From the NCBI GenBank assembly GCA_018818145.1, contig JAHIST010000006.1, forward strand, positions 1 through 38,261: 38,261 nucleotides of DNA, given 5' to 3'. This DNA comes from Patescibacteria group bacterium. GTDB lineage: Bacteria; Patescibacteriota; Minisyncoccia; Portnoybacterales; GWB1-42-6. A model generated the notes under the pieces. That model searched no databases. It saw nothing but the letters and a program-made list of their open reading frames with translations, and was not told the origin of the DNA. The translations under genes and the position numbers were made by a program. Shown here in pieces: positions 5,725-8,626 of this stretch (the first letter of the stretch is position 1; each line of letters opens with the position of its first letter).

Positions 5725-5752
5725 TTGACAATTTTCTCTACTGATTTAAAAT
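5725..5752 (+). promoter_or_regulatory. Promoter of the T-box leader
   Basis: TTGACA (5725-5730), 16-bp spacer, TAAAAT (5747-5752). It lies just upstream of the T-box leader. Confidence 0.65.
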
Positions 5753-5790
5753 ATACTTAAGAGCGATGACGCAGACTAACCACCTGCTGA

Positions 5791-5825
5791 CCCCAATTAG
5801 ATAGCGCTTCGCGCATCTAACGGGG
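5791..5825. repeat. Family B palindrome in T-box stem region (copy 1)
   Basis: CCCCAATTAGAT, loop, ATCTAACGGGG. Other copies are at 5853, 15265 and 37157. Confidence 0.75.
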
Positions 5826-5852
5826 TAAAGCTCGCGTAAGCAGCCGACGATA

Positions 5853-5886
5853 CCCCATTAGATAATGCTTCGTATATCTAACGGGG
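5853..5886. repeat. Family B palindrome in T-box stem region (copy 2)
   Basis: CCCCATTAGATAAT, loop, ATCTAACGGGG. It is close to copy 1 but differs in the loop, so it is unlikely to be a very recent tandem duplication. Confidence 0.75.
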
Positions 5887-5952
5887 CAAGACAGGCGTAA
5901 AAAGTGGTCCGGTTTGTATAATCGGGCAACTTGGGTGGAACCGCGAGGTTAA

Positions 5953-5978
5953 CCCTCCTTCGCTAAAGCTACGGAGGG
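5953..5978. repeat. Family C palindrome in T-box antiterminator region
   Basis: CCCTCC...CGCTAAAGCTAC...GGAGGG, in the loop between the two antiterminator halves. It is related to the copies at 29536-29562 and inside miaA. Confidence 0.6.
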
Positions 5979-5989
5979 CGAAGAAAAAA

Positions 5990-6045
5990 CCCCGTCCCAA
6001 GAATTTGCTTTTTTGGCAAATTTTTGAGATGGGGCTTTAGTTTTT
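5990..6045. terminator. T-box terminator, probably bidirectional
   Basis: A 19-bp stem with one mismatch (CCCCGTCCCAAG.. against ..TTGAGATGGGG). The plus strand reads CTTTAGTTTTT after it. The minus strand reads GTTTTTTC after it, so it also ends the zinc-ribbon gene at 6059-6310. Confidence 0.8.
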
Positions 6046-6058
6046 ACGTCCCTCCTTT

Positions 6059-6310
6059 TCAATGACTTTTTTTGGGAAACTGTGAGGGCTCGCGGTCGTG
6101 GCAACCGCAATTCCGACAGTCAACCAGCAGCCGCAGAACCGACGCCCCAAACTCGTCAAACACATTCGCGAAGCTAACCGAACACTGACCTTTATCGGCA
6201 ACCTTGGTCCCGCATTGCGGACAATAAAGAGTCACCTCCTCCGGCAGCTCTACCGAGCCAGATCTTGATTTTGTCAAAATACCAAGACCTATTCTAGTTT
6301 TAACACTCAT
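6059..6310 (-). CDS. Small zinc-ribbon protein of unknown function
   Basis: 83 residues. Two CxxC pairs, C30-P-Q-C33 and C65-R-N-C68 (followed by C70), would form one zinc ribbon. The spacer between them is hydrophobic and the C-terminus is basic. I do not recognise a specific family. The ATG at 6310 is chosen because AAAGGAGG lies 7-9 nt upstream. The gene lies on the opposite strand between the T-box leader and thrS, and it shares the T-box terminator as its own 3' end. Confidence 0.7.
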   Translation of the reverse strand: MSVKTRIGLGILTKSRSGSVELPEEVTLYCPQCGTKVADKGQCSVSFANVFDEFGASVLRLLVDCRNCGCHDREPSQFPKKSH

Positions 6311-6389: not shown

Positions 6390-8213
6390 ATGTCAACAAA
6401 ATCAAATCAAAATAATAAATTAGATATCTTAAGGCACTCCGCCTCCCACATCCTCGCCGCCGCGGTTTTGGAAATGTTTCCCGAAGCCAAATTCGGCATC
6501 GGACCAACTATTGAGGGTGGATTTTATTATGACTTTGACTTGCCCCGCACGCTAATTCCCGAAGACCTGCCTCTTTTGGAAGAGAAAATGCGCGCGATAA
6601 TAAAGCAGAATTTTTCGTTTGAGCGACAAGAAATTGAAGCCAAAAAAACACAAAAGCTTTTTGATAAAGCTGGACAACCCTACAAAGTTGAACTGATAAG
6701 AAAATTGAGTAAACAAGAAACAAGTAAACAAGTCGCAAGTAAAAATAAAAAGGCAGAAAAACTTGTCACTAAACACTTGCCACTTGTCACTATCTATAAA
6801 ACCGGAGGTTTTGTAGATTTATGCCGCGGCCCGCACCTTGATTCCACCGGCGAAATCAAAACCGATGCCTTTAAGCTTCTCAAAATTGCCGGCGCTTATT
6901 GGCGCGGGTCGGAAAAGAATAAAATGCTTCAGCGTGTTTACGGCACGGCTTTTGAGACAAAAAAAGAGCTGGATGAATATTTCAAAAAATTAGAAGAAGC
7001 CGAAAAAAGAGACCATCGCAAGTTGGGCAAAGAATTAGATTTATTTAGTAGCCACGATGAAGTAGGCGCTGGTATTTTTCTATGGCATCCAAAAGCATCA
7101 GTTATTCGTACTGTTATAGAAGACTTCTGGCGCATTGAGCATAGTAGGCGCGGTTATCAATATGTTTTCACGCCGCATATCGGTAAATTAGAACTATGGA
7201 AAATTTCCGGCCATTGGAATTTTTACCGTGAAAATATGTATACGCCGATGATAACGCCAGAAGGAGAATATATGATTAAGCCGATGAATTGCCCTTTCCA
7301 TATCTTAATTTATAAAACCAAACCCCGCTCCTATAAAGATTTGCCTATTCGTTATGGTGAGTTGGGCACCGTTTATCGTTTTGAACGGGCTGGCACGCTT
7401 CATGGATTATTGCGAGTAAGAAGCTTCACCCAGGACGATGCCCATATTTTCTGCCGCCAAGATCAATTATTAGATGAGATAATCGGTGTATTAGATTTAG
7501 CTCTCTTTATGTTGAATTCGTTTGGTTTTAAAGAGTATAAAATTGAATTATCGACTCGAGATCCCAAAGAAAAGAAAAAATACATGGGCGATGATAAAGT
7601 GTGGGATAAAGCGGAAAAGGCCCTGGCGAACGCCCTTGAAACCAAAAAGTTAAAGTATAAAATTATGCCCGGCGAAGCAAAATTTTACGGACCAGCGATT
7701 GATATTAAATTGATTGATGCCCTTGGTCGAGGCTGGCAAGGGCCGACTATTCAACTTGATTTCAATTTAGCTAAAAATTTTGACGTCAACTATATTGATC
7801 AAAAAGGCAAACCGCAACAAGCAATTATTCTCCACCGCACCGTACTTGGCTGCATGGAAAGATTTTTGGGTTGCCTAATTGAGCACTACGCCGGCGCGTT
7901 TCCGGTGTGGCTGGCGCCGGAACAGGTCTGGATTTTATCCATTGGCTCGCGGCACGAAGAATATGCTTTTAAGGTCGCCGAAAAATTGAAATCCGAAAAT
8001 ATCAGAGTTGCGGTCAAAAATGAAAACGAAACCATCGGCAAAAAAATCCGCGAGGGCGAACTTCAAAAAATCCCCTATCTTTTAGTTGTGGGCGATAAAG
8101 AAATCGCCGCCGACTCCGTCGCTGTGCGCGAACGAGGCAAGGGAGACTTGGGGCCAATGAAAGTGGACAAGTTTATAGAAAAGATCCTTAACGAGATTAA
8201 AAATAAGAATTAA
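6390..8213 (+). CDS. thrS: Threonyl-tRNA synthetase (no TGS domain)
   Basis: Charges tRNA-Thr and edits Ser-tRNA-Thr. 607 residues; it begins directly with the editing domain (LRHSASHILAAAV, zinc-type H16 and H20; C145 and H149 in DLCRGPH), so the N-terminal TGS domain of the E. coli enzyme is missing. The class II core follows: NCPFHILIYK, motif 2 GTVYRFERAGTLHGLLRVR and motif 3 ILHRTVLGCMERFLG, then the anticodon-binding domain. Residues about 107-133, rich in SKQ/KHLPLV, are encoded by an inverted heptad repeat (6711-6789) kept in frame. No Shine-Dalgarno sequence is seen before ATG 6390. Likely controlled by the T-box upstream. Confidence 0.97.
   Translation: MSTKSNQNNKLDILRHSASHILAAAVLEMFPEAKFGIGPTIEGGFYYDFDLPRTLIPEDLPLLEEKMRAIIKQNFSFERQEIEAKKTQKLFDKAGQPYKVELIRKLSKQETSKQVASKNKKAEKLVTKHLPLVTIYKTGGFVDLCRGPHLDSTGEIKTDAFKLLKIAGAYWRGSEKNKMLQRVYGTAFETKKELDEYFKKLEEAEKRDHRKLGKELDLFSSHDEVGAGIFLWHPKASVIRTVIEDFWRIEHSRRGYQYVFTPHIGKLELWKISGHWNFYRENMYTPMITPEGEYMIKPMNCPFHILIYKTKPRSYKDLPIRYGELGTVYRFERAGTLHGLLRVRSFTQDDAHIFCRQDQLLDEIIGVLDLALFMLNSFGFKEYKIELSTRDPKEKKKYMGDDKVWDKAEKALANALETKKLKYKIMPGEAKFYGPAIDIKLIDALGRGWQGPTIQLDFNLAKNFDVNYIDQKGKPQQAIILHRTVLGCMERFLGCLIEHYAGAFPVWLAPEQVWILSIGSRHEEYAFKVAEKLKSENIRVAVKNENETIGKKIREGELQKIPYLLVVGDKEIAADSVAVRERGKGDLGPMKVDKFIEKILNEIKNKN
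6711..6789. repeat. Heptad-spaced inverted array inside thrS
   Basis: CAAG at 6714, 6721, 6729 and 6736, and CTTG at 6762, 6776 and 6783, form inverted halves with mostly 7-bp steps. The reading frame is preserved. Confidence 0.6.
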
Positions 8214-8236
8214 TCACTGTAATATCTACTCCCTTT

Positions 8237-8626
8237 GTCATTCCCGCGAAAGCGGGAATCCAGTGCGGGATAAACTCCAGCGGGAATCCAGTTTTTGAAT
8301 TTTAGAATGAATCAAAAAAGTTATTACGTTTATATTATAGCCAGCAAACGAAACGGCACTTTGTATATTGGCGTAACTTCCGACTTAAAAAAACGCATCT
8401 GGGAACATAAGAATAATCTCGTAGAAGGATTTACTAAAAAATATAAAGTTCATTTGCTTGTATATTATGAATCGACTAATAATGTACGCAGTGCAATAAC
8501 ACGAGAAAAACAATTAAAGAAATGGAACAGAAAATGGAAAATAGGGCTCATTGAAAAAAATAATCCCCGATGGAAAGATTTATACTGTGATCTTTAATCC
8601 TGGATTCCCGCTTTCGCGGGAATGAC
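8237..8626. mobile_element. Putative GIY-YIG-carrying palindromic element
   Basis: A 390-bp unit is bounded by perfect 27-bp inverted repeats at 8237-8263 and 8600-8626 (GTCATTCCCGCGAAAGC... outward). These are the same family A arms found without a gene in rnhB, the PMT gene and miaA. Inside is a single GIY-YIG gene. An extra partial arm (GCGGGAATCCAG) follows the left repeat up to 8292. That this is the autonomous form of the dispersed repeats is inference. Confidence 0.6.
8307..8597 (+). CDS. Small GIY-YIG nuclease-family protein
   Basis: 96 residues, a stand-alone GIY-YIG domain of the UPF0213/YhbQ-like type. VYI at 8-10 and LYIG at 19-22 are the two core strands, R30 in KKRIWEH is the conserved arginine, and E67 in TREKQLKKW is the metal-binding glutamate, so the catalytic set looks complete. 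It ends with the family-typical NNPRWKDL. The ATG at 8307 is preferred over an in-frame TTG at 8295 that overlaps the repeat edge. Single-domain members of this family have no firmly assigned role; some GIY-YIG proteins are homing or repair nucleases. The flanking inverted repeats suggest a mobile unit. Confidence 0.88.
   Translation: MNQKSYYVYIIASKRNGTLYIGVTSDLKKRIWEHKNNLVEGFTKKYKVHLLVYYESTNNVRSAITREKQLKKWNRKWKIGLIEKNNPRWKDLYCDL

Follow-up and report, generated by a model that had tools for sequence, protein, structure and literature searches.

A probable compact T-box leader of thrS with three inserted palindromes in a genome of the Patescibacteria

Can a riboswitch keep working when foreign hairpins have been inserted into it, and do such hairpins then become parts of it? 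This question is raised by the leader of a threonyl-tRNA synthetase gene (thrS) in the window, i.e., the whole stretch of 38,261 nucleotides analyzed here, which is a contig of an 866-kb draft genome (G000) whose relatives were found among the Parcubacteria/Patescibacteria. The initial annotation had described a T-box leader with three embedded palindromes and proposed that mobile palindromes may have become parts of a working riboswitch. Surveys place T-boxes in Firmicutes, Actinobacteria, Chloroflexi, Deinococcus-Thermus, and a few Proteobacteria (PMC2494555, PMC3766115). In the open-licence papers searched, nothing relevant joined T-boxes with CPR, Patescibacteria, or Parcubacteria, and a partial literature search returned no report of palindromes in a riboswitch. 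The literature used comprises PMC7583486, PMC7778990, PMC2494555, PMC3766115, PMC10482949, and PMC2229807.

The regulated gene, thrS, lies at 6390-8213 (plus strand, as all features below unless stated otherwise), and its product matches the Pfam families tRNA-synt_2b, HGTP_anticodon, and tRNA_SAD. The T-box leader upstream of it spans 5760-6045 including the terminator, or 5760-6001 if only stem I through the antiterminator is counted. It is preceded by a strong sigma70-type promoter, TTGACA-16-TAAAAT (5725-5752), with 11 of 12 matches in a consensus scan, and a TTGACA-like box is also present upstream of the leader in palindrome-free relatives. In the interval from the leader to thrS, the consensus scan revealed no further plus-strand site that resembles a promoter. 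The 345 nt that separate the terminator from thrS include a small zinc-ribbon-like gene on the minus strand (6059-6310), which is antisense to the read-through transcript. This gene had no match in a Pfam search and has a promoter-like sequence, TTGACA-17-TATTGT, at 6396-6368. Its homologue in the related genome G002 is at the same place and 54% identical, and G008 has an apparently frameshifted copy (by eye). On the minus strand, the T-box terminator could also end this gene, whose antisense strand would be transcribed upon T-box read-through. A search for a plasmid match gave none. Beyond thrS, a GIY-YIG nuclease gene (8307-8594) lies between two copies, in opposite orientation, of the commonest palindrome of the genome (GTCATTCCCGCGAAAGCGGGAATCC; 8234-8264 and 8602-8626).

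Does this leader have what a T-box needs? Its parts are all present and in the correct order. Stem I (5761-5833) has only standard pairs and consists of a base helix (5761-5764/5830-5833) and an upper helix (5771-5774/5784-5787), with a k-turn whose loop is at 5765-5767 and whose G5768-A5769 faces G5789-A5790. The apical specifier loop, ACTAACCAC, has 9 nt (5775-5783) and presents the threonine specifier ACC (5779-5781) followed by A5782. The next element is a IIA/B-like pseudoknot (5835-5896), made of H1 (5835-5837/5847-5849) and H2 (5843-5845/5894-5896), the latter having just three pairs in the window. It is followed, at 5902-5929, by RRRNG (AAGTG), stem III (5907-5914/5920-5927), and AA, an arrangement published as the discriminator signature 5'-RRRNG-Stem III-AA (PMC7778990). 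The antiterminator (5930-6001) comprises helix A1 (5930-5935/5996-6001; 6 of 6 pairs), the bulge UGGAACC (5936-5942), and helix A2 (5943-5950/5988-5995; 7 of 8 pairs and one A.C). The intrinsic terminator occupies 5990-6035, or 5990-6047 with its T tail; it is predicted at -26.7 kcal/mol over 5990-6047, is followed by TTTAGTTTTT, and forms in the fold of the full leader. Because the strand 5990-6001 belongs both to the 3' side of the antiterminator and to the terminator, the two structures are mutually exclusive. With the UGGAACC bulge, A1, A2, and this shared strand in place, the T-box core and its competing terminator are intact, as initially annotated.

The leader is also very compact. Stem I ends at its 9-nt specifier loop, and a distal stem I with interdigitated T-loops is absent from both the window and an alignment of 16 related leaders. 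There is no stem II with S-turn, as stem I and H1 are separated by 0-1 nt. The predicted best fold of the nascent leader has an energy of -88.0 versus -78.7 for the T-box-constrained fold, a value that leaves out the k-turn, the pseudoknot, and the tRNA. As minimum-energy folding alone does not give the T-box form, we used comparative evidence.

For this, we built a covariance model (R1) from 16 palindrome-free thrS leaders of relatives. The window was kept out of the training set, and so were loci L019 and L053, which had been misplaced in the first multiple alignment. The 16-leader alignment has 26 pairs in six helices, with 96.1% of the cells paired and double-sided changes (both sides altered in at least one sequence) in 23 of the 26 pairs. 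None of 500 shuffles was as good, and slid partners pair in 30-46% of cases. All nine pairs of the base and upper helices of stem I show double-sided changes, H1 covaries, A1 is paired in 99% of the cells, and both the ACC specifier and the UGGN bulge inside the antiterminator are invariant. H2 was assessed separately, and its pairing among the relatives was better than in 1000 of 1000 re-dealings. Model R1 finds the window leader at 5760-5968 (31.9 bits, E 2.6e-7 over 215 kb) and again in a genome scan with stricter filters (26 bits, E 5.2e-5), these E-values being rough; the helices of the whole element were inspected singly.

The general Rfam model gave a different picture. At the gathering score, the T-box model had no match in the window, and a sub-threshold match of RF00230 (5897-5960; 18.7 bits, E 0.095 or 0.02, for a curated cut-off of 93 bits) covers only the 3' (antiterminator) half. 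The score is low because the leader belongs to a divergent, compact class. The cut-off was reached by none of 16 related loci, and in a relaxed search the classic-type leaders L019 (49.3 bits, E 4.9e-8), L036 (46.3 bits, E 2.9e-7), and L008 (35.9 bits, E 1.4e-4) matched along the whole model. The miRNA and sRNA names that appear in the low-score Rfam list were dismissed as chance matches to hairpins. Hence, the T-box named by the initial annotation goes unseen by Rfam at its gathering score and is recovered by the lineage-specific model.

Across the phylum, model R1 matches 86 of 380 genomes (E <= 0.001), and thrS is near 29 of the 30 class loci that were fetched. Judging from sequence, the class is akin to the known T-boxes yet set apart by a stem I that stops at the specifier loop and by the missing stem II. 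We class the window leader as a divergent T-box, taking the family in its broad sense, and it should work like a transcriptional T-box. With a class present in about a quarter of the sampled genomes of the phylum and invisible at the Rfam cut-off, T-boxes would extend beyond the range in which they are known, and the opinion that an elbow-binding stem I apex is a general requirement of transcriptional T-boxes (PMC7583486) would come into question.

How such a leader would operate can be proposed by analogy with known T-boxes, from which we infer tRNA binding, antitermination, and the response to starvation; the specifier, the bulge, the discriminator match, the exclusion between antiterminator and terminator, the promoter, and the gene order are read from the sequence. 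The GGU anticodon of an uncharged tRNA-Thr could base-pair with ACC in the specifier loop that caps the very short stem I, and the UCCA end of the tRNA could do so with the UGGA bulge. Binding would hold the antiterminator (5930-6001) together and stop the terminator (5990-6035) from forming, so that transcription of thrS would start under threonine starvation. The UGGA bulge predicts a discriminator U, which is found in every tRNA-Thr recovered from nine genomes of the family. The ACC specifier predicts the anticodon GGU. Among these nine genomes, tRNA-Thr(GGU) was found only in G005, and the 95%-complete draft of the window's genome has tRNA-Thr(UGU) and tRNA-Thr(CGU) only.

Where, then, are the palindromes? 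Two belong to family B and one to family C. B1 (5791-5825) stands between the GA of the k-turn and the 3' strand of the base helix, where it creates a three-way junction, and is followed by TAAA (5826-5829). B2 (5853-5886) is in the pseudoknot loop, between the 3' strands of H1 and H2, and is followed by CAAG. The family C palindrome (5953-5979) is in the antiterminator loop, in agreement with the initial annotation. The family B tip-plus-arm pattern has two exact matches in the window (B1 and B2) and the family C pattern one (5958-5977), for none expected by chance. Both families are dispersed. A search with the family B arm pattern, CCCGTTAGA..TCTAACGGG, returned 18 copies in the genome, against 0 with the reversed pattern as a control; G002 has 7 and the other family members 0-2. 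The tip pattern of this family is rare, with three copies in the window's genome and one in G002. Family C has 8 copies genome-wide (0 for the control) and 1-13 in every family member. The palindromes are imperfect and 27-39 nt long. Many family B copies are flanked by TTYA before and CRRG after the palindrome (by eye). We found no published name for these families in the open-licence literature searched. A longer element (..ggatagcaaatttagctcg CCCCGTTAGATTTGAAAATTATCTAACGGGG cgaggcgag..) with family B at its center was seen in seven copies (L221, L222, L226, L227, L232, L233, and L236).

The insertions add about 100 nt to the leader. All three fall in loops or junctions, and no helix or core motif is interrupted by them. 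B1, B2, and C fold autonomously (-19.6, -14.3, and -12.3 kcal/mol), each forming its own hairpin whether or not the fold is constrained to the T-box. B1 is the least innocent of them, as an extra helix at the k-turn junction could weaken the bend. In the window leader deprived of its palindromes, 42 of the 137 gaps (31%) avoid a helix or a core motif. With so few permissive gaps, the chance that three random insertions all prove harmless is about 3%, an estimate that carries an ascertainment bias, as broken leaders are less likely to be noticed. A Y1 (IS200/RAYT-like) transposase was considered as the mover of the palindromes and set aside, as PF01797 had no match in the G000 assembly; there is one weak match in G002. 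The initial annotation calls the palindromes mobile; their current mobility is unproven.

The comparison of thrS leaders shows that the palindromes are insertions, since their sites are empty in relatives. In none of G001, G004, and G007 is a family B or C palindrome present at the junction of stem I or in the loops of the pseudoknot and the antiterminator. G008 and L019 have the same classic terminator and lack family C, and G008 also lacks family B. B2 is absent from G002, G001, G004, G007, and G008. The B1 site is also occupied in G002 (L003), by a family B copy identical to B1 in position and tip, the arms having drifted between the two genomes without compensating changes. The antiterminator loop of G002 holds a family C copy in the orientation opposite to that of the window. 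We considered B1 as a mark of common descent of G000 and G002, but this is unsupported by the tree and by the thrS identities: G001 and G002 are sisters (85%), G000 and G002 are only 71% identical, and G001 has no B1. The distribution of B1 and C may reflect loss in G001, parallel insertion, or recombination.

Palindromes also occur in leaders further away. In L039, from another lineage, the loop of stem III holds a GTCATCCTGAAC..TTCAGGATC palindrome with 16 copies in the genome, including the one in the T-box. In L049 this loop holds a GTCATTCCCGC..GCGGGAATCC palindrome with 8 other copies in its genome. Hence, the presence of dispersed palindromes in predicted thrS T-boxes is a wider habit, extending to two lineages besides that of the window. 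The pseudoknot loop of L019 contains CCCCGCTTAGCGGG; L056, L064, and L082 have extra, unrelated hairpins at the stem I junction; and L199, L200, and L208 have long repeat-like inserts in stem III. In a separate observation, tRNA-like remnants (Tyr-, Thr-, and Met-like) have palindromes within the would-be D arm or anticodon region, in G000 at about 15900-16350 of contig C84 (L170) and at 66-124 of contig C21 (L173). It looks as if palindromes may also land in tRNA genes or gene copies.

Relatives also have thrS leaders of other designs. Leaders of the AGTGGAACC type are found in G001, G004, G007, and most Moranbacteria. Their terminator takes its 5' strand from RRRNG and the 5' side of stem III, and it encloses the antiterminator. 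In 15 of 19 leaders, the complementarity of this terminator exceeds that of dinucleotide shuffles (p <= 0.01). The choice in these leaders would be between stem III and the terminator, and the window uses a different platform. We know of no described T-box platform of this kind. It was observed in L004 (1253-1420), L005, L007, L027, L051, and others, i.e., in most relatives. The k-turn is seemingly lost in the thrS leaders L054, L056, L066, L072, L073, L075, L082, and L083, where the specifier hairpin comes directly after the base helix and a linker or extra hairpin is on the 3' side. In L193, L219, and L073, the T-box is separated from thrS by ORFs on the sense strand and may thus govern the extra gene and thrS as one operon.

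What are the palindromes to the switch? We consider it probable that the leader is a working compact transcriptional T-box for thrS, sensing uncharged tRNA-Thr, and that the palindromes are tolerated passengers. They would have entered places where an extra hairpin is tolerated, at the junction of stem I and in the loops of the pseudoknot and the antiterminator. Since they fold on their own as hairpins, the core would be undisturbed; they were most likely kept because they do little harm, and selection would have removed the insertions that broke the switch. Points that weigh against this reading are the lower energy of the unconstrained fold, the three-pair H2, the position of B1 at the k-turn, the failure to find tRNA-Thr(GGU) in the draft genome, and the antisense gene ahead of thrS. 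Alternatively, the palindromes could have been co-opted, with B1 forming a three-way junction that positions the tRNA or the pseudoknot in a T-box devoid of elbow apex and stem II, and C stabilizing the antiterminator or speeding its folding. The shared position and tip of B1 in G000 and G002 despite the divergence of their thrS, the presence of family C in both antiterminator loops, even if in opposite orientation, and the unrelated hairpins at the stem I junction of L056, L064, and L082 would fit such a role. We nevertheless regard it as unlikely, given that G001, the sister of G002, has neither insert, that the B1 copies of G000 and G002 show uncompensated differences in their arms, and that palindrome-free leaders are the rule in the class. 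Passengers fit better because the arms of B1 drifted uncompensated, because C is reversed in the nearest relative that has it, and because the sites are empty or occupied by unrelated hairpins in relatives. The initial proposal thus holds for the insertion of dispersed palindromes in a T-box leader, and these comparisons count against its suggestion that they became working parts. A broader version, in which Patescibacteria have a separate class of minimal transcriptional T-boxes without elbow contact or stem II and some palindromes are architectural (e.g., B1 as a third helix at the k-turn junction), seems to us similarly unlikely.

One might also suspect a decaying relic, i.e., a T-box look-alike that the insertions and the antisense gene have uncoupled from thrS. 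Three insertions, an H2 of three pairs, an unfavorable minimum-energy fold, and 345 nt with an antisense gene before thrS are what one could expect of it. It is, however, an improbable explanation: no damage is seen in any core motif, in the promoter, or in either arm of the terminator, no other plus-strand promoter-like site was seen downstream of the leader and ahead of thrS, and G002 has the same arrangement, with leader and antisense gene diverged but intact. Finally, loop length varies within this class and small stems are frequent in the loops, so the three hairpins might be native, fast-evolving loop stems that resemble the dispersed families by chance. This was already disfavored and is very improbable, since by chance no occurrence of the family B or C pattern is expected in the window, and the two patterns have 18 and 8 genome copies for controls of 0. 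The palindromes serve as natural insertion mutants that mark the loops of a riboswitch able to accommodate a foreign hairpin.

How does this leader compare with known systems? With the transcriptional, long stem I T-boxes of RF00230 it shares the specifier and its adjacent A, the k-turn, the succession of RRRNG, stem III, and AA, the UGGNACC bulge, the competition between antiterminator and terminator, and an aminoacyl-tRNA synthetase gene downstream. It differs from these class I T-boxes in having neither the distal T-loops of stem I that stack on the tRNA elbow nor a stem II. In this respect, it resembles the actinobacterial ileS T-boxes with ultrashort stem I (PMC7583486), in which stem I stays below the elbow apex, the specifier is in a short stem I, and the k-turn and IIA/B pseudoknot are kept. 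Yet, the latter (class II) are translational, specific for Ile, and have a stem II with S-turn, whereas the window leader has an intrinsic terminator, a Thr specifier, and no stem II. The palindromes, for their part, are short, imperfect, and dispersed, with a preferred flank (TTYA .. CRRG for family B), like bacterial REP and small MITE-like palindromes; unlike REP-type palindromes mobilized by Y1 transposases, they have no Y1 match in the G000 assembly. In the account of PMC2229807, which cites Ogata et al. 2002, Rickettsia palindromic elements are inserted in tmRNA and M1 RNA and apparently tolerated. As described there, they too are dispersed palindromes inside functional structured RNA genes, but they are longer (105-146 bp), unlike those of the window, and reside in stable RNAs, whereas the window has three in one regulatory leader.
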